A stretch of DNA of 20,413 nucleotides from a virus: the IMG/VR virus record IMGVR_UViG_3300009408_000043, positions 1 to 20,413 of that record, one strand, 5' to 3'. Numbering within the stretch: position 1 is the first letter of the stretch; every line of letters begins with the position of its first letter. The notes under the pieces were generated by a model. It did no database searches and was not told where the DNA came from. It worked only from the letters and a program-made list of their open reading frames with translations. Of the stretch, positions 2,264-20,264 are shown piece after piece. The position numbers were made by a program, and so were the translations under genes.

Positions 2264-3570
2264 TGGGTGACCACGCACGACTGTCGCCATCAAATATCCG
2301 CTGGCCAGTGTGTCCCGGCTCGATCCGGGAGGAAGCGCAGTATCCGGAGCAGGAGGCAGGGGCCGCTGCCATCGACGGCACCGGGTCGCACCTGCTGCTG
2401 GAGATGTGTCTCAACGAGGGGGTGGACGCCAAGCACTACCTCCACCAGACCATCGGCAAGGGTCACGAGGACTGCCCCGAAGGCTGGCGGGTCGAGTACG
2501 ACCGGGCCGAGCGGGTGCAGATGGCGCTGGACTACATCGAGCGCCGGAAGCAGGAGGTACCAGACCTCGAGGTGGGCAGCGAGGCGCGGGTCAACCCTGG
2601 CTACTGGTTCGGGCGCGATGACTGGTGGGGCACCTGCGACGTGCTCATGGTCAGCGTTCACCCCACCGAGGGACTGCTGGAGGTTGTGGACTACAAGGAC
2701 GGCCGGGGCTGGGTGTCCGAGGACACCCGGCAGCTCGTCTCCTACGCCCTCGGGAACCTGATGCCGTTCCTACACCCCGGCGGCAACGCCCCGCTGCACC
2801 GTGGCGTGGTCACCGCGCAGGAGGCGGCCGAGTGTGCGATTCGCAAGGTGCGCCTGACCATCGTACAACCCCGGACGAACCCGCCGGTGCGCTACCGGGA
2901 GGTGGGCACCGAGTGCTTCTTCGCGGAGGCGATGGCCCTGGTGGACGCCGCCTTCGCAACGGATGACCCGGATGCCCCGCTGGTGCCGGGGAAGCATTGC
3001 CAGTGGTGCGCCCACAAACCGAACTGCTCCGCACGGAGCGAGGAGAAAGCCGTGGAACAGACGAAGCAACTGAGCGTCGTCATGCCGGACACCGCCTCCC
3101 TGGCGGAACGGCTGGCGACTGCGCCGGACACCGTGCCGGCGGAAACCCTGAGCCAGTTTCTCGACGCATGGAAGGCACTGTCCGACTTGCACGAGATGGT
3201 CGAGAAAGAGGCTCGGCGCCGCATCGAAGCCGGGGGCAGTGTGCCCGGCTACATCGTGGCCCCGGGTCGGGTGACCCGAAAGTGGGTTGCCAACGAGGAG
3301 GAGATGTGGAAGAAGCTCCGCAACATGGGCCTCAAGAAGTCCGACGCCTTCGACATCAAGTTGAAGTCCCCGGCGAAGATCGAGGCTCTGCCTCAGCTCA
3401 CCGAGCGGCAGAAGAAGCGCCTGGCGGAGTTCATCGCGGTCATCGACGGCAAGCCCAAGCTGAAGAAGGGCACGCCGAAGACCGAGAAGGACGTGTCCGC
3501 CATGTTCCGGGACATCCCGACCCTTGAACCTGCCGCTGAAGTGGCAACTGAAACCCTGTCGTTCCTGTGA
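2263..3570 (+). CDS. DUF2800 protein, Cas4-like PD-(D/E)XK nuclease with likely Fe-S cluster
   Basis: 435 residues, start overlapping the previous stop (TAATG). Nuclease motifs appear in RecB/Cas4 order: His43 in GTGSHLLLE; Asp126 in GTCDV; Glu140 and Asp143-x-Lys145 in EVVDYKDGRG; and Gln157-x-x-x-Tyr161 in RQLVSYALG (QhxxY motif). Four cysteines sit where Cas4 and AddB nucleases bind a 4Fe-4S cluster: Cys17 near the N-terminus, then C246-x2-C249-x5-C255 (HCQWCAHKPNC). DUF2800 proteins occur beside DUF2815 in many phage replication blocks. A DNA end-processing exonuclease in replication or recombination is the likely role, inferred from motifs. The C-terminal 150 residues are helical and charged and end in LSFL; the helicase also ends in LSFL. 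Confidence 0.88.
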   Translation: MGDHARLSPSNIRWPVCPGSIREEAQYPEQEAGAAAIDGTGSHLLLEMCLNEGVDAKHYLHQTIGKGHEDCPEGWRVEYDRAERVQMALDYIERRKQEVPDLEVGSEARVNPGYWFGRDDWWGTCDVLMVSVHPTEGLLEVVDYKDGRGWVSEDTRQLVSYALGNLMPFLHPGGNAPLHRGVVTAQEAAECAIRKVRLTIVQPRTNPPVRYREVGTECFFAEAMALVDAAFATDDPDAPLVPGKHCQWCAHKPNCSARSEEKAVEQTKQLSVVMPDTASLAERLATAPDTVPAETLSQFLDAWKALSDLHEMVEKEARRRIEAGGSVPGYIVAPGRVTRKWVANEEEMWKKLRNMGLKKSDAFDIKLKSPAKIEALPQLTERQKKRLAEFIAVIDGKPKLKKGTPKTEKDVSAMFRDIPTLEPAAEVATETLSFL

Positions 3571-3581
3571 GGAGAAGACTG

Positions 3582-4388
3582 ATGGAAATCAAAGTCAAAG
3601 GCATCCTGTCTTACCCGCGCCTGTTCACCCCGCGCAAGATCGCGCCGGATTCCGAGCCGAAGTATTCGGCCAACATCCTTGTCTCCAAGAACGACCCACA
3701 GGTGGCCACCATCCAGCAGGCCACTGAGCAGGTCAAGGCCGACGGGTTTCCGAGCGGCTTCCCGGCCAACGGCAAGCTGCCGCTGAAGGACGGTGCCACG
3801 GAGTTCCCCAACGATCCGCGCATGCACGGGTACTACATCCTGAGCGCCAAGGCCGTCGATAAGCCGGTGGTCGTGGACGCCAACCTTCAACCTGTGATGG
3901 ACGGGTCACAGGCGTACCCCGGTGCGATGGTGTGGGCGAGCGTTGGGCTGTTCTCCTACAACAAGACGGTCAACAAGGGGGTTGGTTGTGGTCTGAACGG
4001 CATCATGGTGACGGGCGAGGAGGGGCCGCTGGGTCGCCTTGACAACCGGCCCACCGCCGAGCAGATGTTCGCCGGCGTGGCGACGGGCGCCGCCCCTACC
4101 TCCGCCGCAGCCCCGGCCCCTGCTGCTCCGGCTCCGGCTCCGGCTCCAGCTCCAGCTCCGGCTCCAGCTCCGGCTCCGGCCCCTGCTGCTCCGGCTCCGG
4201 CTCCGGCTCCAGCTCCAGCTCCGGCTCCAGCTCCGGCTCCGGCCCCTGCGCCCGTGCAGCACCAGATGACCGAGAAGGCCAACGGGGTGCCGTATGAGCA
4301 GTGGGTCGCCCAGGGCTGGACCGACCAGATGCTCATCGAGCAGGGCTACATGCTACCCCCTGGCGGCGCACCGCTGGCGTTCCAGTAA
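3582..4388 (+). CDS. DUF2815 single-stranded DNA-binding protein with long Pro/Ala linker
   Basis: 268 residues from the ATG at 3582. AGGAG lies 7 bases upstream, so a GTG at 3567 is less likely. Residues 1-165 match the DUF2815 pattern (K-x-x-G-x-L-S-Y-P-x-L-F-x-P ... YSANILVSKNDP ... Y-I-L-S-A-K ... YPGAMVWASVGLFSYN ... GVGCGLNGIM), a family treated as an OB-fold ssDNA-binding protein similar in role to T7 gp2.5. Residues about 174-224 are a pure Pro/Ala linker built on a duplicated 63-base unit. The C-terminal tail (225-268) holds YEQWVAQGWTDQMLIEQGYM and lacks the acidic tip typical of bacterial SSB. That tail shares a motif with an insertion in the phage polymerase. The role is coating ssDNA and probably recruiting replication partners through the tail. 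Confidence 0.85.
   Translation: MEIKVKGILSYPRLFTPRKIAPDSEPKYSANILVSKNDPQVATIQQATEQVKADGFPSGFPANGKLPLKDGATEFPNDPRMHGYYILSAKAVDKPVVVDANLQPVMDGSQAYPGAMVWASVGLFSYNKTVNKGVGCGLNGIMVTGEEGPLGRLDNRPTAEQMFAGVATGAAPTSAAAPAPAAPAPAPAPAPAPAPAPAPAPAAPAPAPAPAPAPAPAPAPAPAPVQHQMTEKANGVPYEQWVAQGWTDQMLIEQGYMLPPGGAPLAFQ
4117..4242 (+). repeat. Perfect 63-bp tandem duplication in the SSB linker
   Basis: Bases 4117-4179 are repeated without a mismatch at 4180-4242, and an 8-base start of a third unit is present. Each unit codes for 21 residues of Pro/Ala. Within each unit there is a 6-base substructure of CCGGCT/CCAGCT. Confidence 0.95.
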
Positions 4389-4399
4389 TTCACCAACCG

Positions 4400-4430
4400 C
4401 CGACCCCCTGCATCCGGGGGTCGGTGTTTT
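4400..4430 (+). terminator. Intrinsic terminator or attenuator between ssDNA-binding protein and polymerase
   Basis: CCGACCCCC (4400-4408) pairs perfectly with GGGGGTCGG (4416-4424), a 9-bp stem with a 7-base loop, followed by TGTTTTC. The T run is short, so termination may be partial. It sits just after the ssDNA-binding gene and 25 bases before the polymerase start. It would lower polymerase transcript relative to the SSB, which is needed in larger amounts. Confidence 0.65.
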
Positions 4431-4455
4431 CGAGGGGGAGAAGGATGAGCTTCCT

Positions 4456-6513
4456 ATGAGTATCTTGCACCTAGATTACGAAACATTCTCCGAGTGTGAC
4501 ATCACCAAGGCGGGGGCGCATGCTTACGCCGCGCATCCTTCGACCGAGGTGCTCATGCTCGGTTGGTCGCTGGACGGCGCTCCTGTGGAGGTGTGGGAGC
4601 CACACAAAGGCCCGATGCCGGACGTGTTGGCCAATGCGTTCAACGATCCTGACACCCTGCTGTACGCCTTCAATGCGCAGTTCGAGCGGCTCATCACCCG
4701 TGACGTGATGGGCATCAACATCCCGCCCCATCGGTGGCGGTGTGTCATGGTCATGTCGTACTACCTCGGATTCTCCGGTGGATTGGACGCGGTGTGCGAG
4801 CAAGTCGGTATCCGGGGGAAAGACCCGCGCGGTGCGCGGCTCATCAACCTGTTCTCGAAACCCGCGCCGAAGAATCACAAGGCGTCCCGGTACACCTGGG
4901 AGAACCGCCCCGAGGATTGGAGGGATTTCGTGGGGTACTGCCGCCAGGACGTGGAGGCCGAGATGGGGCTACACGCCTTCTGCAAGAGGTTCCCACTCAT
5001 GGCACCGTGGGATTGGGAGCAGTGGTTCATCGACCAGGAGATCAACGACCGGGGTGTGCCGTTGGATACCGATATGGCACGCTCCGCCGTGGAGCTGTGG
5101 TCCCGGGAGCAGGAGCGCCTCAAGAGCGATCTGGCTCAGTTGACCGGGCTCTCTCGGGTGACCCGTGGGCCTTTCAAGGAGTGGCTGGAAGGGTGTCTTG
5201 GCCGCGAGTTGCCGAATCTCCGCAAGGACACCCTTCAGCACATGGAGGGCCTGGACCCCTTTTCCGAGGCGGCGGAGGCCATTGACCTGTGGCTCCAGAA
5301 GGAGGCCAAGGCCACGGCGAAATACACCGCCATGCTCAACGGTGTGCAGGATGACGGGCGCGTGCGTGGCATGTTTCAGTACAAGGGCGCGTCCCGCACC
5401 GACCGGGTAGGGGGCCGCCGGGTGCAAATGCAGAACCTGAAGCGGCCGATGGTAGAGACCCCGGAGGCGGCGAACACCGTGGCCGAGGCCATCCGACTCT
5501 GCTCGCCGGACATGCTGCGTATCTTGTACGACAAGCCCGTTGCCGAGGTGCTCGGGAGCGCGGTGCGCCACGCCATCTGTGCCCCGGAAGGACGGCTGCT
5601 GATCGCTGCGGACTTCAGCTCCATCGAGTCAGTGGTGCTGGGGTGGCTGGCGCAGTGCTCCACTATCGATGAGATATTCCGGTCGGGCCGGGACAGCTAC
5701 AAGGTGTTTGCCGCCGAGTATTACGGCGTCCCCTACGAACAGGTCACCAAGGCGCAGCGGAAGTTCAGTAAGCCCCCGGTGCTGGGTGCCGGGTACTTCC
5801 TCGGCTGGCGTGGCCTGATCCGGTACGCGGAAAGCATGGGGGTGAAGATGACCGAGGAGCAGGCCAAGCGGGCGATTGACACCTTCCGGGGGATGTACCC
5901 CGAGATCGTTGAGTTTTGGGATTGGATCGACACCGCGGTTCGCCACGTCACTGCGACCGGGGAGGTGGTCACGGGGTATCGGCTCCAGGTGGCCCGCGAT
6001 GACCGATTCCTCCGGGTGCAGGTTCCGTCCGGGCGCTGGTTGAGCTACTACCTCCCTTCGGTAGAGACTCATGCGGCACCGTGGGCCGAATACGTCATGA
6101 CGGAAGCCGCGACCCACACCCGCGAGGAGTACCGGGACTCCGGGTGGACCGACGCCCAGCTCGTGCAAGCTGGACTGATGGTGCCGCCGGACACCGTGAC
6201 CAACTTCTCCTATATGGGTATGAATGACCGAAACCAGTGGGTCCGTATCCATGCGCACAAAGGCGGGCTGACGGAGAACCTGGTGCAATCCATCGCGGGG
6301 GATCTTCTGTGGGATGGCATCCGTGGGGCCGAAGCCGCCGGGCTGCCGGTCATCCTGCACGTCCATGACGAGATTGTGTGTGAGGTGCCTGAGGAGACCG
6401 CAGAACAGGATCTGGAGACCCTGAAGCGCGTCATGACCACGCAGCCAGGTTGGTGTCGGGATATGTGGCTCGGCGCCAGCGGGTTCATCACCAAACGCTA
6501 TATGAAAGATTGA
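4456..6513 (+). CDS. Family A DNA polymerase with 3'-5' exonuclease domain
   Basis: 685 residues from the ATG at 4456; AGGATGAG at 4442-4449 is the likely ribosome site, and the frame further upstream overlaps the SSB gene. Proofreading domain: Exo I DYET (Asp7, Glu9), Exo II NAQFE (73-77), Exo III YCRQD (Tyr161, Asp165). Polymerase domain: motif A DFSSIES (Asp386); motif B R435-x3-K439 through GAGY (Tyr447), with Leu443 at the usual Phe/Tyr/Leu site; motif C HVHDE (Asp638). This is the replicative polymerase of the phage. Two oddities: the Arg that normally follows the motif A Glu (E-x-R-V) is Val here (E-S-V-V), and between motifs B and C there is an insertion (about 545-585) carrying GWTDAQLVQAGLMVPP, similar to the SSB tail. 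VRR-NUC follows after 4 bases. Confidence 0.95.
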   Translation: MSILHLDYETFSECDITKAGAHAYAAHPSTEVLMLGWSLDGAPVEVWEPHKGPMPDVLANAFNDPDTLLYAFNAQFERLITRDVMGINIPPHRWRCVMVMSYYLGFSGGLDAVCEQVGIRGKDPRGARLINLFSKPAPKNHKASRYTWENRPEDWRDFVGYCRQDVEAEMGLHAFCKRFPLMAPWDWEQWFIDQEINDRGVPLDTDMARSAVELWSREQERLKSDLAQLTGLSRVTRGPFKEWLEGCLGRELPNLRKDTLQHMEGLDPFSEAAEAIDLWLQKEAKATAKYTAMLNGVQDDGRVRGMFQYKGASRTDRVGGRRVQMQNLKRPMVETPEAANTVAEAIRLCSPDMLRILYDKPVAEVLGSAVRHAICAPEGRLLIAADFSSIESVVLGWLAQCSTIDEIFRSGRDSYKVFAAEYYGVPYEQVTKAQRKFSKPPVLGAGYFLGWRGLIRYAESMGVKMTEEQAKRAIDTFRGMYPEIVEFWDWIDTAVRHVTATGEVVTGYRLQVARDDRFLRVQVPSGRWLSYYLPSVETHAAPWAEYVMTEAATHTREEYRDSGWTDAQLVQAGLMVPPDTVTNFSYMGMNDRNQWVRIHAHKGGLTENLVQSIAGDLLWDGIRGAEAAGLPVILHVHDEIVCEVPEETAEQDLETLKRVMTTQPGWCRDMWLGASGFITKRYMKD

Positions 6514-10325: not shown

Positions 10326-11629
10326 TATGCGACCCTCTTAACTCGAATAAACACATCTGTATTTGTGTTTGCAAGGGAAGACTGAAGACTTCCCATTGAT
10401 GTATATGGAGTTGTGTTGTCCGTCCAATATGTATGAGTTAACGCAGATATATCGTAGTCTGCACTTGACCCGTGTGACACACCATTAAAAACGGGGAAAT
10501 TATATCCAGTTGTTCCAGTCTTTCTCGTTTGCAACATTCCATGACAGCTTCCGAGATGGAGACAGTTAGGCACGATTATAAAAGACCCCAGGGTCTGGCT
10601 CCCTGACGCGCTGAATGAAGTCCAGCTCTCAAAATAATGCCACCAAAACGCACTAGCATAACTTGTATTATTCGGCAGCAGGTATAAAGACTGTGCCGCC
10701 GACATCGTTTTCTGCCAAACAGAAACGCTTAGTTCATAAATCTGGTCATCCGCCACAGCGATGTGGAGCGGGACTGACGTCATGCCGACAAGTTGCGCCT
10801 GCAAAAACGCCTCTTGTCCAACCTGTAGTGTTACATCTGCTGTGAGTGTTGACAGGTCGATACGGGCTGGCAACTGTGACACCGGGAGCGTAGCGTTTGC
10901 ATCCAGCGTCGCCACGCCGTTTGCTGCTCCAGGGATCAACTCACCAGCAATGTTCCCGCTCGCATCCAGCGTAGGCACAGCCCCAGCCGTCGCACCTGCC
11001 AACTTGTCGGCTTTCCCGGAAGCGTCAACACTCACCCACGCGGCCCCGTCATGGTACTTCAAGCCGGAAACATTGGTGTCATACCACAAAGGGAACACGG
11101 CTGGATCGGGCGCGGTGGCCCCGACATTGATGACCGTGCTGCCGGGGGCGACGTTGGTGAGCTTGGTGGCCGGGCTGTCCCAGCCAAGCAGATACCCCGG
11201 AATCGGCGTTGGGAGTGTCGGGTCCACGCCCGTCGTTGTGGGTGACAGGGATAGGGAGCGGGAATCCGCCTCGACAAGCTGCTGGACAAGGTACGTCAGC
11301 TTGTCCAGCGCGTCCTCGTGGACCTGTGGGTAGAACGCGCCCTGGCTCACGAAGTCCGTCTCTTGGGTCGGGACGAAGTCCGACTTGATGAGCAGGGTAT
11401 ACCCGGTGGGCAGCGGGTTGGTCAGCGTCACCGTGCGCCCCGTCGTAGACCCGACGCCGTTCACCGTGTAGTCAGTACCCTCGGTCAACGTGGTGACGTT
11501 GCCCGCAGTGTCGGTCTGGTACAGGATCAGCTCGGACGCCTGCCAGATCGTCCAGTTGTAGTCAAAGGTGGTTGTCACCCCGTTTCCGGTGTACGGGCCG
11601 GCGACGATGCTGGTTGTTGGTACGGTCAT
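10325..11629 (-). CDS. Tail fibre protein, T7-fibre-like N-terminus with exchanged-looking C-terminus
   Basis: 434 residues from the ATG at 11629 with GGAG 8 bases upstream; the start overlaps the previous stop as ATGA. Residues 1 to about 120 match the virion-attachment domain of T7-like fibres: YTGNGVTTTFDYNWTIW, LTEGTDYTVNGVGS, TDFVSQGAF and HEDALDKLTYLVQQL. Residues about 200-260 are fibre shaft repeats (GKADKLAGATAGAVPTLDAS type). The C-terminal part from about residue 275 is rich in Ser, Thr, Tyr and aromatic residues and would bind the host receptor. By hand count, bases 10321-10740 are about 44% GC while the first lines of the gene (11221-11340) are about 64%. This suggests the receptor-binding half came from another source. 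Confidence 0.88.
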   Translation of the reverse strand: MTVPTTSIVAGPYTGNGVTTTFDYNWTIWQASELILYQTDTAGNVTTLTEGTDYTVNGVGSTTGRTVTLTNPLPTGYTLLIKSDFVPTQETDFVSQGAFYPQVHEDALDKLTYLVQQLVEADSRSLSLSPTTTGVDPTLPTPIPGYLLGWDSPATKLTNVAPGSTVINVGATAPDPAVFPLWYDTNVSGLKYHDGAAWVSVDASGKADKLAGATAGAVPTLDASGNIAGELIPGAANGVATLDANATLPVSQLPARIDLSTLTADVTLQVGQEAFLQAQLVGMTSVPLHIAVADDQIYELSVSVWQKTMSAAQSLYLLPNNTSYASAFWWHYFESWTSFSASGSQTLGSFIIVPNCLHLGSCHGMLQTRKTGTTGYNFPVFNGVSHGSSADYDISALTHTYWTDNTTPYTSMGSLQSSLANTNTDVFIRVKRVA

Positions 11630-14600
11630 TTCTTCACTCCGAACAGCAACTTGTCGATGGTGGTCTGATCGAGGTTTCCTGCTGCTGCTTCCGTTATTGT
11701 AGCGTCAATCCCCTCGACTGTCCTTGAGATCTGCGCGGCCCCGCCGACGTGGAAGATCGCCGATGCAGCGATAGCAAGGTTACGCATATCACGTTTGGTG
11801 AACTCCTCGTCGCCACCGAAGGCCAGGCTCACCAGCTTCTTGCCAGACGCCCCGAGGTCTGCGGCGATCCCGTAGAGCGGCATGTCCCCTCCCATGTTGT
11901 ACACGGCCCCACTGTAGACGGCCCCGCCGAGTGGGATCATGCGGGACAGGTAGCCCATCTCCTCCAGGATGAACTTCTCCCATAGCATCTTGTCGTCGTC
12001 GCTACCGTCGTCTCGCATGAGGGCGGACCACACCTCGGCCACCAGAACCGAGATAATCGACGGGGCGATGCCTGCGTAGAAGACCCGCACCGCGGCCTCG
12101 CCAACGGTGTATTTGCCGCGTGCTGCGCCAACCGCCGCGTCCTCCAGCGCGTTGTAGAAGCTCAGGAAGGCCGTTCCGAACAGGGTCAGCCAGCGCATTG
12201 ACTCCGGGCGTTGCTTCTGCGCCACCGAGGGGAGGTTCTTCGCCTCACCCGACCCCTGCACCCGCTCCACCGCGGAGTCGGCATAGGCGATGGCCTCCTG
12301 CTCGATCTCCTCTGGGGACTTCTTGCTGCTGGCCTTCTCGATGTGGGATCGATACGCAGCTACCCAGGTGGGTAGATCGACACTGTACGTCTGGAACAGG
12401 CCATAGCCCAACATGCCAAGGTAATTCCACTTCGCCTTGCGGCCAGACTGACCTCGGGCCTGCTCGCGGGCGAACTTGATCTCCCGGTCCCTGGTTTGCA
12501 TGCGGTAGGGCATCACGGCGCTCTTCTCATTGACCCATCGCACGGTCTCAACGGGGTCGCTGAGGATCTCGATGATCGCTTTGATGAGACGTTTCTCACC
12601 TACACCGATCCGGCCGTCGGACAGCTCCCCGACCGAGTTCACCAGGCCGAGTGTCTGAGACAGCATGCCGCGCACCGAACCCCATAACACAGCCAGCGTG
12701 AAGCCGTGGCGGACATGGGCGCTGAGTTTCTCCACCGCGCTCGGTGTCCGGCGGTTCCCGCCCGCCACGTCAACGAGGTTCTCCTTCAGCGCCTGGAGCA
12801 TGTCGTAGCCTTCGGCCTGATTGATGGCGTTCTCAACCTCGTGATCCGACAGAAGCCTATTGAGGCCATGGATCGTCTCGTAGTGCGTGATGTAATGCAC
12901 CACATCGGTCATCGTGTCGATCATCACGTTGAGATCAAGGTTCAACGGTCCCACGAAGTTCGTCACCCCATGCGTCGCGTCGGGGTGGAGCAGCGGGTCA
13001 CGGAAGCCCAACCCGTCAAACATCTGATCTACCGCCTGCTGAGCCTTCGCAGAACTCTCCTGCGCCAGCATCCGGTAGTCGTAATCAATCGGGGCGTACC
13101 CTCCTTTGATGACCTCTCCGGTTACAGGGTGGGTGATCTCCATCTCCTGCTTCTTCTTGAGCCTGGCACCCTTGGTTCGCATGACCACTTCCTGCATGAG
13201 CGGGAACAGCTCCCGGTAGATGGCCCACGTCTCCTTGACGATGGTCCAGTCCTTCTCATCCAGCAGGGACAGCACCTCCTTGACGAAGGGGTGGTCCAGG
13301 GTGGCCGTCTCGTCCTTGGCGATCAGGCCGTAGCCCTTGAGCAGCTTGTCAAGGTTCTCCTGCGTCCCCATGTTCAACACCGCAGCGATCAACTGATCCC
13401 CGCGAAGGTGGGTGTGCTTGCCACCTGTCGCGGCGGCGAGGCTCTGAATCGGGTGCAAGGTGTTGTGCTTCTTGAGCTGCTCCCGGTCCCGATTTGCCAG
13501 AAGTTCCGCAAACTTCATGACCGACCACTTCGACATCTCGTGCTCGGCCTCAAGCGCCTCGGTCTTCGGGCGGTCGAGAATCTCTGTAACCGGGCCGGCC
13601 CGCTTGTGGCCTTGCAGTCGCATCGCCAGCCACGGAGACCCCGCAAGGGAAGCGCGCAGCTCACGGAACAACCTTTTGCCTCTGTCTCGCCCCTGCTCAT
13701 GGAGCCTCTGAGACTTGTCGCGGGCAACCTGCTTGTTACTCTTCTTGTCGATTCGGTTCCTGTGGATGGCGGACAGCAGCGTTTCCTTCGTCTCAGCGAA
13801 GTCACGGTCCTTGTCGGCCAGGCGAATCTTATTGACGTTGAGCGCCGCGTGCCGGAGGCTCATCACCGAGTCGTAGACCGCCAGGGCCTGCCCCACGGTG
13901 AGTTCTTTGAAGGGGGTGGTCTTCCCAGCGATCACCACGTCGGGAGGCTGTACGTCCCCGGTCTTCTCGTTTACCCACTTGGTAAACAACTCGACCGCCA
14001 GCTCGGACTCGGGTACGTCAATGCCAACGCGAGTCAGCATGACCGCGATCCGCTCCCAATACCCCTCACCAGCGCGGATCACCTTCTCACGGTAGGACTC
14101 CTTCTTGAACTTATTGAGCTTGCCCCACGCCTTCTGGACTTCCTTCTTGTACGCCGTGGCCTCGTTGAACAGGTAGTGGTTGACGAGGCGGATCTCGGCC
14201 CAATGTGCTGCATCCTCCATATCACCCCGCGCCTCGGCGGCGCCCTGTAGGCGGGCGGCACGGATCTCAGCGGCCCGGTACTCCCCCGGCGTCAGGTCAG
14301 ACACCTTCAGGTTCACCAGGCGCTCCTTGACCGCCGCCTTGATCGCCTGCACGTCGGGCGTCCGCTTCCCGGTTGCCTTGTTCAGCCGCAGGAACTCCTT
14401 GAGAATCTTGTCGGAGTGGGCCTGGCTGGTCAGCTCCTCGGCTTCCTTCTGCAACCGTTTCGGGTCCGTCAGGTCGCCGTAGATGGCCTTCAGCTCGGCC
14501 TCGGCTAGCCGCGCCGCTTCCGTCTCAGGGTCATCCATCATGGCCAGCATGCGGACAAGCTGCTCCCCCGTCTTGACCCCCTCAAGCTGGGCCAGCTCGG

Positions 14601-17600
14601 CCAGGGCATCCGGGTGCATGCCATCCTTCGCAACCGTCATGTTATAGAGGCGCTTGGGGATTCGCTTGACGCCGAGGATCTCCTTGACCGCCTTCCGATC
14701 CAGCTTTACCCCGTTCTGAGAGCGCATGGATTCACGAAGCCGGTGGCGCTTCTCGTCCCGCAACTTGGGAATCCACCGCTTCATGATAGACTGCTTCTTG
14801 TCCCTCCACTCCTTCGTGTACTGCTTCTTCAGCGTCTTGTACCACCGGCGGACCAGACGATCCTTCGCCTCCTGTGCGGCCATCCAGTCGGCCAGCTCCG
14901 GGTCGCCACCGGCCTTGTCCATCCTGGCCTGCTCTGCGGCCTTGCGCTTCTCCTCCCGCGCCTCCTTCCGCTTCAGTACCCGGCCCACCACCTCGTTGGC
15001 AATGGAGCGGTAGCGGGACAGGGCGACCTGCTCCTCCACCGCCGTGTCGATCGCCAGCAGTTGATCGAACAGCTCGGACGCCTCGGCCTTCACTTCGTCG
15101 GTCAAGAACTCCGGGGTGTCCTTGTAGACGTAGAGCATCCACTGGCGGGCGGAGCGAAAGGTGTCGCGCAACGCCGCCGACGGGGCCTCGCCGGAATACA
15201 AGAACTTCTCGAACTCGGTGGCGAACCACTCGTGGACTGCGCGAAACGTCTTCGGGTCGTCACTGGCGCCAGCCACCACCCGGTACACATCGGCCGCCGA
15301 CAGCCCGGTGTACTCCGCGATCTTCTCCTCCAGGCCCCGCAGTGGCCCCATCATCCCGCCAGCGAGCCGCGTCTCGGCCTCCAGGATGAAGTGCGCGGAC
15401 TCGCGGAGGAACGTCGTCAGGTCCGCCGCGTGGGTGAAGTACATGGTCAGGGTGTTCGGGTTGAAGCTGCCACGCCCACCCGACTGCTCAGCCACCTTGC
15501 CCTTCCGGTAGGCGTACTCCCGCAACCAGGCCCGTGCCAAGCGGGCGTCGAGGGTTGGATCCTCACCTTTCTTCTTCGGCTTCTTCACCAGGCCCAAGTC
15601 GCGCACCTCGGCGTTCAACTCGCCGGATTCCAGCGCCGCCTTCACCGCGCGGGCGTTGCGCCCGGTGAACACCGAGTCGGGCATCTTCGCCACTCTCGCC
15701 ACCCGGCTCAGTGCGGGGCCTACGATGTCCAAATCGAGGCTGTCCGCCACCTCCCGCACCGAGACCCCGAGTTGCCTGGCCTTGGCCGCCATCCATGCCG
15801 GGACCACATGGGCCAACTTCTTCGCGGCCGCCGGCGTTGCAATGCCCGCGTCCTCAATCGCCTGGAGGTGCTCGTCGTAGATGGCCTTGGCTTCCTCCAG
15901 GACTCGGACGTTCTTCATCGCCCGCTCGATCTCCTGCGAGACCCGGGTGCGGAACTCCTCCTGGAACATCTCGATCTCGGACTGCGAAGGGGTGTCCTTC
16001 CCTGGGCGCACATGCGCCCGGATGCGCTCACCCTCGGGGCCGAGCATGATGTCAACCGCATCCCCGACATCCAGCTCAATGTCCTTCTGCTCAGCCTCGG
16101 CCTCCTTGATCTTCTCTTGCAGGGCGGCCATCCACGGGACGGTGTTCTCGTCCTTTCCGGTCTGGTACAGCTCATCGACCACCCGCTTCGCGTCCCGCGG
16201 GTCGAGGTAGTATTTCACCCCCTTGGCCCGCCCCACGTCGTTCAAGACTTCCCGCCGCAGGCCCGGGTTGGTCTTGGCAAACTTCATGCTCCGGGCCAGC
16301 TCCAGAATCTTGTCGATCCGGCGATGGCCGTCCTGGGCCTCGCGGTCCAACATCATTGCCTCCGCGCTCACCGACACCACGGATACCGGGGCCACGAACA
16401 CCATCGCCGCCTGCGTACCCTGGACCCCAGCGTGCAGCGTCGCGGCCAGGGCCTCCGGTGAAACGGAAGCGGCTATCGCGTCACCGAGGCTGTACTCCCC
16501 GTCCTGCTCCCTGCTCGAATACCACTTGAGCAGCTCACCAATGGTGGATTTGGTCCACTCCTGAAGTGCCTCGGTGCCACCTTCCGCGAGGACGACGTTG
16601 CGGTACTCCCTAGCGCCACGGAGGAGAACTTCCCGCATCGTCGGATCACGGAGCGCGTCCTCCACCACCTTGCGGAAGAGGTGTTTGCCGATGGTGCGGG
16701 TAGCGACACCCGAGAGCACGTCCGTGAGTACCTTGGCACCGAGCATCTCCTCCGCCGCAGAAAACCCGCCCGCGATGATGGCGCCCGCGTCAACATACTC
16801 CTCCGGCAACGGCTTCCCATCGACAATTAGCCGACGGTACTGCTCGCGGGACTCACCGGCTTCCTGGATGAAGGAACCCTTTGCTGTGCCAGCGAGGAAT
16901 CCAACTCGAGCGCCCCATGCAGCCTGGGTCAATGCGGACCCCAGCGTGGCAACCTCACCGAAGCCTGGGATCAAGTTGGTGATGGCCGCCCGGGCTGCAC
17001 CCACTGTCATGCCCGCGGCTGCCCCGGCCCCTGCGTACTTTACACCCGCGCCGTACACATCCCACATGGCAGGTGCGGAGGAAACCGCAGGTGCGAGGAA
17101 GCCAGCGAAGCCACCGATCTTGCCCGGGGACTGGTTGGCCGCCTTCCGCGCCCGCTCCAGCTCAGCCTCCTGCTCTGGTGTCAGCGGGTCGGCGCCCCCG
17201 AAGCGGGCCATCGCGGCCTGAGCACTCAGCTCATTCGCCACGGCGGCAGCGCGGCCCGCATCAAACGCAATGCCGAGGCGCTCCCAATCCGAGGCGTATA
17301 GCGGGCCTTCCGTCTGGTCCATGAATCCAGCAACACGCTTCACGGACTCCAAGGCGTCTCGTACACGCTGGTCCTCGGGCGCATAAAAACCATAATAAAA
17401 ACCATAAGAACTATCTGCTGAGAAGGTGACACCCAGGGTCTTCTCGACCGCGTTGATTTTGGGGATGTCGTCCCACATAGCCGCAGCCTTGCGCGGGTTG
17501 CCCAGGTGCTTTGCCAACGGCTCAGACGCCTGATCCAGCATTTCACGCAGGGTGATCTGCTCCTGCACAAACACCGGATCAAAGCTCGCCTCGTAGTCCT

Positions 17601-17925
17601 CTGGCAGCCCGGCGCGTTTCAGGTCGCGCAGCTCCCTGGCGGCCTTCTCGGGGTTCCACTTGGACAACCCCTCGAACGCAGCCACGCGCCATCGTTCACC
17701 GTAGGCGTGGTCCTCGCTATATCGCTGCACGGCGTGCCAGACGGATAGCGCCTCAACGTCCCGCGCAGTGAGACCTATGGGCTCACTGTACGGGTCTTCT
17801 TGGGCGGGGGCGGAAAGCAGCTTCGTAAGAGGGCCTTGCGGCCGGGGACTTTGCGCTGGTGGGGTTGCGTCCTGCCCGACGGCATCTTTGCGCTCCCCAT
17901 CTCCTTCTGGTACGACCAACGCCAT
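11626..17925 (-). CDS. Giant polyvalent-type internal virion (ejection) protein
   Basis: 2099 residues from the ATG at 17925 with GGGGGG about 5 bases upstream; a GTG at 17931 would add two residues and overlap the previous stop. An acidic, proline-bearing N-terminus is followed by a Gly/Ala-rich region (about 265-355 and onward) that looks membrane-active, then long charged helical stretches. Around residues 820-860 FNPNTLTMYFTH and TTFLRESAHFILE resemble the large-polyvalent-protein segment that normally reads TFLHExxHxxLE, a zinc protease motif; here the first His is Arg841. Hydrophobic segments near 1740-1765, 1910-1935 and just beyond mark a C-terminal LPD38-like part. By size, position between gp15-like and fibre genes, and composition it should be ejected with the DNA and help form the trans-envelope channel. 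I saw no lytic transglycosylase or RNA polymerase motif. Confidence 0.75.
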   Translation of the reverse strand: MALVVPEGDGERKDAVGQDATPPAQSPRPQGPLTKLLSAPAQEDPYSEPIGLTARDVEALSVWHAVQRYSEDHAYGERWRVAAFEGLSKWNPEKAARELRDLKRAGLPEDYEASFDPVFVQEQITLREMLDQASEPLAKHLGNPRKAAAMWDDIPKINAVEKTLGVTFSADSSYGFYYGFYAPEDQRVRDALESVKRVAGFMDQTEGPLYASDWERLGIAFDAGRAAAVANELSAQAAMARFGGADPLTPEQEAELERARKAANQSPGKIGGFAGFLAPAVSSAPAMWDVYGAGVKYAGAGAAAGMTVGAARAAITNLIPGFGEVATLGSALTQAAWGARVGFLAGTAKGSFIQEAGESREQYRRLIVDGKPLPEEYVDAGAIIAGGFSAAEEMLGAKVLTDVLSGVATRTIGKHLFRKVVEDALRDPTMREVLLRGAREYRNVVLAEGGTEALQEWTKSTIGELLKWYSSREQDGEYSLGDAIAASVSPEALAATLHAGVQGTQAAMVFVAPVSVVSVSAEAMMLDREAQDGHRRIDKILELARSMKFAKTNPGLRREVLNDVGRAKGVKYYLDPRDAKRVVDELYQTGKDENTVPWMAALQEKIKEAEAEQKDIELDVGDAVDIMLGPEGERIRAHVRPGKDTPSQSEIEMFQEEFRTRVSQEIERAMKNVRVLEEAKAIYDEHLQAIEDAGIATPAAAKKLAHVVPAWMAAKARQLGVSVREVADSLDLDIVGPALSRVARVAKMPDSVFTGRNARAVKAALESGELNAEVRDLGLVKKPKKKGEDPTLDARLARAWLREYAYRKGKVAEQSGGRGSFNPNTLTMYFTHAADLTTFLRESAHFILEAETRLAGGMMGPLRGLEEKIAEYTGLSAADVYRVVAGASDDPKTFRAVHEWFATEFEKFLYSGEAPSAALRDTFRSARQWMLYVYKDTPEFLTDEVKAEASELFDQLLAIDTAVEEQVALSRYRSIANEVVGRVLKRKEAREEKRKAAEQARMDKAGGDPELADWMAAQEAKDRLVRRWYKTLKKQYTKEWRDKKQSIMKRWIPKLRDEKRHRLRESMRSQNGVKLDRKAVKEILGVKRIPKRLYNMTVAKDGMHPDALAELAQLEGVKTGEQLVRMLAMMDDPETEAARLAEAELKAIYGDLTDPKRLQKEAEELTSQAHSDKILKEFLRLNKATGKRTPDVQAIKAAVKERLVNLKVSDLTPGEYRAAEIRAARLQGAAEARGDMEDAAHWAEIRLVNHYLFNEATAYKKEVQKAWGKLNKFKKESYREKVIRAGEGYWERIAVMLTRVGIDVPESELAVELFTKWVNEKTGDVQPPDVVIAGKTTPFKELTVGQALAVYDSVMSLRHAALNVNKIRLADKDRDFAETKETLLSAIHRNRIDKKSNKQVARDKSQRLHEQGRDRGKRLFRELRASLAGSPWLAMRLQGHKRAGPVTEILDRPKTEALEAEHEMSKWSVMKFAELLANRDREQLKKHNTLHPIQSLAAATGGKHTHLRGDQLIAAVLNMGTQENLDKLLKGYGLIAKDETATLDHPFVKEVLSLLDEKDWTIVKETWAIYRELFPLMQEVVMRTKGARLKKKQEMEITHPVTGEVIKGGYAPIDYDYRMLAQESSAKAQQAVDQMFDGLGFRDPLLHPDATHGVTNFVGPLNLDLNVMIDTMTDVVHYITHYETIHGLNRLLSDHEVENAINQAEGYDMLQALKENLVDVAGGNRRTPSAVEKLSAHVRHGFTLAVLWGSVRGMLSQTLGLVNSVGELSDGRIGVGEKRLIKAIIEILSDPVETVRWVNEKSAVMPYRMQTRDREIKFAREQARGQSGRKAKWNYLGMLGYGLFQTYSVDLPTWVAAYRSHIEKASSKKSPEEIEQEAIAYADSAVERVQGSGEAKNLPSVAQKQRPESMRWLTLFGTAFLSFYNALEDAAVGAARGKYTVGEAAVRVFYAGIAPSIISVLVAEVWSALMRDDGSDDDKMLWEKFILEEMGYLSRMIPLGGAVYSGAVYNMGGDMPLYGIAADLGASGKKLVSLAFGGDEEFTKRDMRNLAIAASAIFHVGGAAQISRTVEGIDATITEAAAGNLDQTTIDKLLFGVKK
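17383..17406 (-). repeat. AT-rich 12-bp tandem duplication coding YGFY-YGFY
   Basis: ATAAAAACCATA is repeated head to tail (17383-17394, 17395-17406). On the coding strand it gives TATGGTTTTTAT twice, coding for YGFYYGFY near residue 175 of the giant protein, in otherwise GC-rich DNA. Confidence 0.9.
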
Positions 17926-17927
17926 GT

Positions 17928-20264
17928 TCACCCCCCACTCATTACCTGAGCAATGGCCTCTTCTTTGCTGAGGCCCTCATCCTTCATCAACTTCTTCACC
18001 ATCATGTAATTGTGCAAGAAGTAGATGGTATTCCCAGGAGGCATGCCGCCATCGGGGAATGCGTCACGGATCTCCTTCATCAACGACGGAATCACACTCG
18101 GCGGGATGTCATCGAGCAGCTCCAGGTCCTCGCTCTCACGGAACTCCCGGACGAGATTGTTGGCAATCTGCTCGTACCGTTGCTCATCCCGCTGGTCCTC
18201 TGGCGTATTCTCTATGGCAACGGCCAACATCGCCCTCAGCGTCATGCGACGGTTTGCCGTCTTCTTGTCGAGCTCTTCAAGATCAGAGGAGCTTGGGCTA
18301 TCTTTCTTCATCAACCGCGTCCGCTCTACATTCAACGGCGCCATGACAGTCCTGAACGCATTTTCAATGGCCGGGTTCTTCTCCGCAACGTCTACCGCCT
18401 TGTACAGCTTCGGAGGCTCCTTGTGACCTGCCCGCGCAGACCTCAAGACCTCCTTGTAATAGGACATCGCTTTATTCGCACCCTTATAACCCCCACCGAA
18501 GGATTGGAAGAACTCCACGATGTCGCCAATTTTCTCGACTTCCTCTGGCTTCATCCGGTACAACGTCTGTAGCGCCCGGATGTTACCTGCCTCCGTGTCT
18601 GTGAAACCACCGCGACGCTGTACAGGGGGCTTCTTGTGCCGAACCCTGAACGCTGAAGCCAGGAACTCGCGCTCGTGTGGGCCGAGCTTGCTGTCCGAGA
18701 ACGAATCGGGGTTCTCACCGTCGAGAACCTTCTTGTACATGGACAAAAACTCCTGCCCCCGCCCTTCCTTCTCTGCGGCCTTCCTCGCCTTCTCGAACTC
18801 ACCCCATCGGGATTTGAGGTCAATGATTGCTGCACGCTCAGGCTTGCCGTCCAGCTTCTTGTTGCGACGGATCTCTGCGGCCATCTCCTCGTAGGTTTTG
18901 CCGACCGGATCCCACACACCGTCCACAGCGGCCTGCGCCACGACGAGGTGATCGGTAGAGGCCCCTGCCTTGCGAGCGCGGTCAAAGTCCCGCCAACGCC
19001 CCCGCAGGTCAGCAATCGCGGCACGCTCTGCACGACCGGATAGGCTCCCGTGGATCGTAGCCTCCATGTCCTCCAGTGATTTATTCGCTGGATCCCATAC
19101 CGAGTCTACAGCATCCTGCGCCATCGACAGGTACTCGTCTACCGAACTCTTCTTGCCACCCGTTGAGTCTGTACCGTGGTACTTCTGATAAACCCGGTCC
19201 AGTTCGAGCTTCTGCGCCGGGGTTAAATGGACCCGCACTTCAGGAGGAAGTTTGTCCGGCGACACCCCGGACCTTGCGCTGTCGAAAGCGTCGTTGTAGA
19301 TATTCAGGTTCTCTTCCTTCCTATCGAGATCCCAAGTCCCGTAGCGGGAACGAATCTCGCTGACGACGAACTTCTCCATCTCACCAGAATACTTCTTGCG
19401 AGCCTCCGCCTCCATGTCCCATACGCTCTTGTTGGCGGGGTCAAACAGGGCATCAGCCGCCACCTGGGCATTCGCCAACAGGTTCTCGTGTTCAAGCGAC
19501 TTTCGGAGCTGCTGAACCCGCTCCTTCAGGGCGGCCTTGGCCTTCGGGGTGAGTTCCTTATCGGCGTCCTTCAACAGCCGCTCGGCACCGCTGATGTCTT
19601 TCACCCCGAGGGCAGACTCGACGGCAGAGGTATGGAAGCTATCAAGGAACGCCCGCCTGCGGGCAAGCGCGATGTCCGGGTCGCTGTCGAGGCCCTGCAA
19701 CTGCAACGCCTCATTGACCGCCGCCAGGCCGCGTTGCTTCTCGATGAACATATTTTTCGGGTCGCCGTAGAACAGGCTCGCATTTGTCACCGTATTGCCC
19801 ACCTCGTCCTTCAGCACCTCCCCCTGGTAGAAGCGGGACTCCTTATCGGCGTGGGTGAGGATCTGCTGGCGGTAGCGCAAAGCATGCGCCTCCGCCGTCT
19901 GAAGGAACGCCTGCTGAGCCTCTGGTATCTCCAGCGAGTCGGCGTACTGCTTCTTCAGATCGTCCAGCTTCTTCAGCACATCCCGGCTACGATCCACCGC
20001 GTCCTTGCCCCGGAGGTAAATATACCCCTCACCCTGAGCGTACAGCAGGGTCTGAACGTCCCGCTCGTACTTGAGCAGGGCGTCACTGGAGTCTGCCTTC
20101 ACCTTCCGCCGGTAGATGTCGTCAACGACCTGGGCCGCCTCCGCGAGCGGGGCCGCGAACGGCGACGGGCCGAGATTGACTGCCTGTGCCCGAGGTTGGG
20201 CGACAACCTGAAGGGTTTGCGTTGGGCCTTTTTGCTGAGGAACCTTTGGCATCATGCGTCCCAC
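17928..20264 (-). CDS. Internal virion protein, gp15-like, with threefold internal repeat
   Basis: 778 residues from a GTG at 20264 (GGGGA 6 bases upstream); an ATG at 20255 is a reasonable alternative. The protein is almost wholly helical and charged, without membrane segments or Cys clusters. The N-terminus (QTLQVVAQPRAQAVNLGPSPF, then FAAPLAEAAQVVDDIYRRK) resembles the start of podophage internal virion proteins. Three related segments of about 55-57 residues occur near 262-316, 379-433 and 440-496, each with A-x-x-A-V/A-D-x-h-W/F-D-P-x-x-K-S/T-x-x-D/E-M-x-A ... E ... h-x-x-L/I-R/K-x-R-W/Y-x-x-F/D. Size and its place between a gp14-like end and the giant ejection protein make it the likely middle ejection protein, probably a tube-forming component in the periplasm. 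The giant gene begins 2 bases after its stop. Confidence 0.7.
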   Translation of the reverse strand: MGRMMPKVPQQKGPTQTLQVVAQPRAQAVNLGPSPFAAPLAEAAQVVDDIYRRKVKADSSDALLKYERDVQTLLYAQGEGYIYLRGKDAVDRSRDVLKKLDDLKKQYADSLEIPEAQQAFLQTAEAHALRYRQQILTHADKESRFYQGEVLKDEVGNTVTNASLFYGDPKNMFIEKQRGLAAVNEALQLQGLDSDPDIALARRRAFLDSFHTSAVESALGVKDISGAERLLKDADKELTPKAKAALKERVQQLRKSLEHENLLANAQVAADALFDPANKSVWDMEAEARKKYSGEMEKFVVSEIRSRYGTWDLDRKEENLNIYNDAFDSARSGVSPDKLPPEVRVHLTPAQKLELDRVYQKYHGTDSTGGKKSSVDEYLSMAQDAVDSVWDPANKSLEDMEATIHGSLSGRAERAAIADLRGRWRDFDRARKAGASTDHLVVAQAAVDGVWDPVGKTYEEMAAEIRRNKKLDGKPERAAIIDLKSRWGEFEKARKAAEKEGRGQEFLSMYKKVLDGENPDSFSDSKLGPHEREFLASAFRVRHKKPPVQRRGGFTDTEAGNIRALQTLYRMKPEEVEKIGDIVEFFQSFGGGYKGANKAMSYYKEVLRSARAGHKEPPKLYKAVDVAEKNPAIENAFRTVMAPLNVERTRLMKKDSPSSSDLEELDKKTANRRMTLRAMLAVAIENTPEDQRDEQRYEQIANNLVREFRESEDLELLDDIPPSVIPSLMKEIRDAFPDGGMPPGNTIYFLHNYMMVKKLMKDEGLSKEEAIAQVMSGG
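18777..19481 (-). repeat. Three protein-level repeats in the 778-residue virion protein
   Basis: Repeat 1 is at 19317-19481, repeat 2 at 18966-19130 and repeat 3 at 18777-18947. Shared signatures are LFDPANKSVWDMEA, VWDPANKSLEDMEA and VWDPVGKTYEEMAA, each followed after about 20 residues by IRSRYGTWD, LRGRWRDFD and LKSRWGEFE. Repeats 2 and 3 are nearly adjacent, and about 62 residues separate repeat 1 from repeat 2. DNA identity is lower than protein similarity, which points to old duplications. Confidence 0.8.

Follow-up and report, generated by a model that had tools for sequence, protein, structure and literature searches.

The 20,413-base virus fragment analysed here (hereafter, the window) raises the question of why two proteins of one replication cassette, a single-stranded DNA-binding protein (SSB) and a DNA polymerase, should carry the same short peptide. 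Based on Pfam and PHROGs matches, the genes of this cassette are ordered DUF2800 nuclease, SSB, polymerase, VRR nuclease and SNF2 helicase (features in Table 1). The SSB gene starts with a GTG at 3567 or, alternatively, with an ATG at 3582, and its product is a member of family PF10991 (E=9.1e-31; score 107 against a cut-off of 26). The polymerase belongs to family A, with recognizable motifs A, B and C, a Klenow-like fold, and residues D386, K439 and HDE 637-639 invariant across 36 polymerases. Two genes on the minus strand of the window encode a 2101-residue protein matching phrog_9880, a family of unknown function (11626-17931), and a 778-residue protein matching endolysin/head families (17928-20264); both products are likely large virion proteins.

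Table 1. Features of the SSB and polymerase genes of the window
Feature	Position	Strand	Basis
ssDNA-binding protein gene, Enc34-type/DUF2815	3567..4388	+	Pfam PF10991; phrog_112, phrog_7011
Flexible Pro/Ala linker of SSB, residues 180-229	4104..4253	+	direct reading
SSB copy of the 30-residue module, MTEKANGVPYEQWVAQGWTDQMLIEQGYML, SSB residues 234-263	4266..4355	+	profile, alignment
SSB terminal PPGGAPLAFQ	4356..4385	+	alignment of SSBs
Family A DNA polymerase gene	4456..6513	+	PF00476 E=7.9e-25; phrog_17 E=1.7e-113
Polymerase motif B region, RKFSKPPVLGAGY	5758..5796	+	direct reading; R435, K439, L443 invariant, 36 polymerases
Hairpin strand 1 carrying the polymerase insert, residues 528-540	6037..6075	+	DSSP, AlphaFold2 model
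Polymerase copy of the module, MTEAATHTREEYRDSGWTDAQLVQAGLMV, 29 residues, polymerase residues 548-576	6097..6183	+	profile, alignment, model
Hairpin strand 2, polymerase residues 580-589	6193..6222	+	DSSP, AlphaFold2 model
Polymerase motif C, HDE, residues 637-639	6364..6372	+	invariant in 36 polymerases

The initial annotation had described a 16-residue peptide common to both proteins, and this observation is real. The two 16-mers (4314-4361 and 6142-6189) are in frame in the SSB and the polymerase, with 9 identical residues rather than the 10 originally counted. Their alignment reached a BLOSUM62 score of 60, against 51 for the best of 2000 shuffled polymerases aligned to the SSB tail, and nothing similar to the peptide turned up in the window's remaining replication proteins (scores of 12-23). 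The size of the element had to be revised: the SSB 16-mer is the second half of a module of 30 residues, which in the polymerase measures 29. An alignment of copies from other phages gave the consensus MTxKAxGxTYExxxxxGWTDxxLIxxGYMx, and both window copies fit its profile (W18, D20, G27 and the 30-residue frame). A profile built from 14 other copies matched the SSB copy with E=6e-17, and one built solely from other copies recovered the polymerase copy with E=5.6e-6 among 8951 ORFs. Hence, the two replication proteins do bear the same small module.

As had been proposed, the SSB copy follows a long Pro/Ala linker, and the polymerase copy lies between motifs B and C as an insertion rather than as ordinary family A core. 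The insert is absent from eleven polymerase relatives at 45-57% identity, 8 of which come from phages whose SSB bears the module; at less than about 40% identity, polymerases have neither. The AlphaFold2 model of the window polymerase (36 sequences; mean pLDDT 93.6, pTM 0.89) placed the insert, with a block pLDDT of 93, at the tip of the hairpin formed by strands 528-540 and 580-589. The remainder of the model is Klenow-like, its best Foldseek match being the Klenow fragment 1kfs (E=1.7e-22). Within the insert, DSSP assigned helices to residues 556-561 and 566-571, spaced as in the SSB module and flanked by short strands. Meanwhile, in the model of a relative with two modules on its SSB (L066; 35 sequences), both modules displayed block pLDDT of 94-96 and the secondary structure E-HHH----HHHHHH----HHHHHH---E, and the linkers were of low confidence. 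The OB domain of this model matched 4klk, the Enc34 SSB 5odl and T7 gp2.5 1je5 (Foldseek, E<=5.5e-8), indicating a gp2.5-type OB fold. The same strand-helix-helix-strand pattern is thus predicted, at pLDDT of about 93-96, for SSB and polymerase modules. Helices had been anticipated by the initial annotation; according to these models they would belong to a folded micro-domain and not to a mere helical tail.

To establish how widespread the module is, degenerate DNA patterns for its GWTD core, which are blind to protein type and biased toward copies with this core, were run over 2.9 million viral contigs. These scans revealed about 140 module loci; about 50 of the 63 stretches of the GY form and 92 of the 95 of the GM/GL form were true copies. 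After redundancy removal 135 carriers were left, 20 of them with two or three copies and 115 with the module no more than 20 residues from the C-terminus. Although carriers were found regardless of protein identity, they are overwhelmingly SSBs and DNA enzymes, and the usual placement is the end of an SSB tail, behind a Pro/Ala linker. The largest groups comprise 70 carriers around L198 (phrog_7011 SSB) and 30 grouped with the window SSB; smaller ones include SSBs of the DUF669/phrog_6015 and phrog_112 types and phrog_862 and phrog_27714 proteins, which are SSB-like in appearance. Because unrelated SSB-type families (PF10991, DUF669, phrog_862, phrog_27714) all bear it, the module is not tied to one OB core.

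In most phages the SSB is the sole carrier, and at least 18 of the 96 positive records have the module on two or more different proteins (our own count from the hit tables). A random occurrence in unrelated proteins with no such co-occurrence is not what is seen. Cultured carriers include Salmonella phage 9NA, the Sashavirus group, and phages of Klebsiella, E. coli, Vibrio, Shewanella and Stenotrophomonas. A slightly more stringent pattern, applied to 257 Gb of genomes from bacteria and archaea, yielded a single match, and the pattern scan of plasmids yielded none. These counts indicate a viral element that is rare in or absent from prophages. A host or plasmid origin is rejected on these scans, the sole genome match, in a Zixiibacteriota bin, being itself an SSB gene.

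The residues that follow the module vary among SSBs. In many relatives, PSFA or PSFV replaces the window-type terminus, and in L066, L003, L128 and other DUF2815-type SSBs a PSF followed by A, V or G is conserved at the extreme C-terminus. Two SSB tails (L108:3944-4822, TDDIPF; L072:1776-2915, GGDIPF) have the module and then a tip resembling the bacterial SSB-Ct, that is, two docking elements. Some DUF669-type SSBs, as well as the SSB of L125, which lacks the module, end in PPW tips (L014:5323-6219, LPPWMQQ; L045:956-1849, VPPWMQKPAG; L199:947-1753, PPWAQKK; L125:1431-2339, APPWDM), which are perhaps another docking motif.

Besides SSBs, several DNA enzymes carry the module. The insert between motifs B and C occurs in the polymerases of the window, L125, L005/L024 and L007/L015, and in a diverged version in L006 and L137. 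The closest relative of the window, L125 (43 kb contig, polymerase 69% identical), has the module on its polymerase only. In a different polymerase, that of L067, the module lies upstream of motif A, just before a cysteine-rich CPWC segment, where 21 relatives have none, so that family A polymerases were grafted at two different sites. An SF2 helicase (L261; Pfam ResIII and Helicase_C, phrog_16) has the module inserted after its TATP motif, a site at which 10 comparable homologues lack it, and the same phage encodes an SSB bearing the module three times. The module is also present in a P27-type terminase small subunit (L057/L121; Terminase_4, phrog_83), compared with which phage homologues are shorter by about 40 residues across the matched region. 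In L250, the gene directly after a module-bearing SSB encodes a 133-residue protein with the module N-terminal to a GapR-like DNA-binding domain (PF10073, E=1.7e-30). The helicase, terminase, GapR-like and L067 polymerase cases are single sequences from metagenome contigs, that of the terminase being 4.3 kb long.

Further carriers are DUF6378 proteins, namely gp29 of Salmonella phage 9NA and the related proteins of E. coli phage Bas82 and Klebsiella phage Carvaje; 9NA and Bas82 each have the module on the SSB as well. Unannotated proteins of marine phages also carry it. A DUF2800 protein had been named in the initial annotation as a possible partner: in L111 a DUF2800 nuclease does bear the module at its C-terminus, and the adjacent SSB is likewise a carrier, whereas the DUF2800 protein of the window has none. 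The product of window gene 1748-2260 combines a Pro/Ala linker with a helical domain at its C-terminus and lacks the module; linker proteins at this position bear it in L003, L017, L118 and L184, inside the linker in L003 and L017. Two adjacent proteins (L115:5568-6512 and L115:6582-7733) each have a clear module accompanied by a diverged copy (YEATGSYTIQQLLDAGWSHDQMVSEGHA). Two of the polymerases contain further, large insertions resembling inteins: that of L005:5992-8415 (L024 contig) starts with TENCVSGDAEVLTDRG and ends with LAHNCVQ near motif C, and that of L007:5540-8638 (L015 contig) is at another site, upstream of the region that matches window residues 436-685. A mycobacteriophage terminase gave a single weak tblastn match. 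An Acinetobacter phage RNA ligase and a Curvibacter phage ParB, also single weak tblastn matches, were not confirmed by the profile and were discarded.

Based on these findings, we postulate that the module is probably a folded docking tag by which lytic phages bring proteins to a shared receptor at their DNA. It would be an autonomously folding micro-domain of 30 residues (short strand, two helices, short strand) serving as a common address for DNA-transaction proteins. Carried on SSB tails by long flexible linkers, it would decorate phage ssDNA with many copies, and in some phages it would have been grafted into loops or tails of proteins expected at the same DNA, namely polymerase, helicase, nuclease, GapR-like protein and terminase small subunit. 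Insertions arose independently in loops where homologues have none (the B-C hairpin, the L067 polymerase, the L261 helicase and the terminase small subunit). A protein-protein docking role is the simplest account that we infer: the tail is the hub site of known SSBs, and the module has been attached to proteins working at the same DNA. The carriers would then meet at one receptor. The tether between polymerase and SSB-coated DNA proposed in the initial annotation is disfavoured in its strict form by L125, with the module on the polymerase only, and by the many phages with the module on the SSB alone.

If the module docks, our first choice of receptor, to which we give about an even chance, is a third protein of phage or host origin that binds all carriers. 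It is favoured by the predominance of phages with a single carrier and by the lone polymerase copy of L125. Gene content named no such receptor: among 20 phage genomes clustered, no non-carrier protein family was common to all, and the widest, a primase, occurred in 16 and went undetected in the remaining four. Because the comparison relied on simple ORF calling and on sequence searches, and several of the records are fragments, it may have overlooked a diverged receptor. Copies on different proteins of one genome were only slightly more alike than random copies (similarity of 0.57 against 0.52), so that co-evolution with a common partner is at most weak.

The second choice, clearly less likely given docking, is contact between the modules themselves. 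In its full form, a module that binds itself would cross-link ssDNA-bound SSBs through their Pro/Ala spacers, and tagged enzymes would join the network. Tandem copies (the 20 carriers with two or three), the sticker-and-spacer layout and the missing third-party gene among the 20 phages all speak for such self-association, which is compatible with any SSB family. However, in L125 the polymerase copy has no SSB copy to meet, and the two-module SSB model, with a pTM of 0.58 and low-confidence linkers, gives no sign of a fixed arrangement of the modules with each other or with the OB domain. We regard this form as unlikely, though it is the strongest of the alternatives. Whether by one hub or by a self-associating condensate, the docking tag may be a portable device for assembling a replication compartment, common to several lytic phage groups. 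SSB-coated DNA would then display the tag on spacers, and polymerase, helicase, nuclease, GapR-like and packaging proteins would gain access by grafting; this broader picture we put forward tentatively, at slightly less than an even chance.

Another explanation would have the tail module cover the DNA-binding groove of its own SSB, the other copies being imitations. The tail position and the mean net charge of the modules (-2.3) agree with it, as does the acidic tail of T7 gp2.5, which competes with ssDNA, and that of the Enc34 SSB, which affects DNA discrimination (PMC5686142). The same module occurs in enzymes that lack an OB fold and on SSBs of unrelated families, and the model scores show no apparent docking onto the OB domain, which makes such intramolecular regulation improbable.

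A functionless in-frame DNA repeat, mobile and inserted into coding regions, could also place the same short segment in loops of unrelated proteins. The palindromic elements of Rickettsia are in-frame mobile DNA repeats of this kind. Here, however, DNA-level similarity as in those elements was not found. Across 137 distinct 30-residue copies W18 and G27 are invariant (137/137 each), D20 is conserved in 136/137 and G17 nearly so, while third positions of the conserved Gly, Ala and Thr codons are near-random (1.75-1.97 bits of 2). In a single gene, tandem copies can reach 97% protein identity at dS 0.7-1.34 and dN 0.01; within genomes, DNA divergence exceeds protein divergence and dN is below dS in nearly all pairs. 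Between the window and L125, the polymerase module has dN 0.32 with saturated dS (whole polymerase, dN 0.25). These figures indicate selection on the protein rather than a recent DNA repeat, and together with the C-terminal placement of most copies and the near restriction to DNA proteins they largely refute a mobile repeat, which we consider very improbable. Chance similarity of two unrelated helical segments, to which the mere 9/16 identity in the window might point, is refuted by the shuffles, none as good, and by profile matches to many proteins (E of 1e-6 to 1e-20), and its likelihood is negligible.

Neither a shared motif of SSBs and replication proteins nor the core strings of the module were found in open-access literature, no Pfam model scored above cut-off for the module peptides alone, and no PDB chain matched the module profile up to E=10. 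Similarities to Decapeptide PF25296, AbiEi_4 and SAM_SMF were far below cut-offs and were rejected as identities; at most they hint at a helix-turn-helix-like shape. In PHROGs, the last 30 positions of phrog_7011 (Gp2.5-like SSB; about 273-302) are the module, filed there as part of the SSB with no record of its occurrence on other proteins. SSB tails as hubs and clamp-binding motifs are already known. What did not turn up in searches of the open-access literature, Pfam and PDB is one folded micro-domain on the SSB tails and the enzymes of the same phages, repeatedly in loops of catalytic domains. It offers a single handle on the assembly of replication machineries in phages other than T4 and T7, cultured phages 9NA and Bas82 make it open to study, and its sequence can help in assigning functions to uncharacterised phage proteins.

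Clamp-binding motifs and PIP boxes are likewise one element reused on polymerases, nucleases and other replication proteins. These are extended peptides, whereas the module is a predicted folded micro-domain that also occurs on SSBs, and its consensus lacks a beta-clamp binding pentapeptide of the QL(S/D)LF type. The thioredoxin-binding insertion of T7 DNA polymerase is a family A insert used for protein docking, located in the thumb; the window insert has an unrelated sequence and another site, the hairpin between motifs B and C. The T7 gp2.5 and Enc34 (DUF2815) SSBs share the OB-fold type and a C-terminal tail expected to contact the replisome, that of gp2.5 touching the polymerase and the primase-helicase (PMC5686142). 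Their tails are unstructured and acidic, while the window SSB has a mildly acidic, predicted folded module of 30 residues on a Pro/Ala linker, of a type found in other enzymes too. The bacterial SSB-Ct (...DDIPF) acts as a C-terminal hub: carried by a flexible linker, it recruits genome-maintenance proteins (PMC10164576). The module resembles it as a C-terminal element on such a linker, although the window SSB ends in GGAPLAFQ instead of the IPF or LPF of that tip, and differs from it in being larger and in being placed inside enzymes as well.
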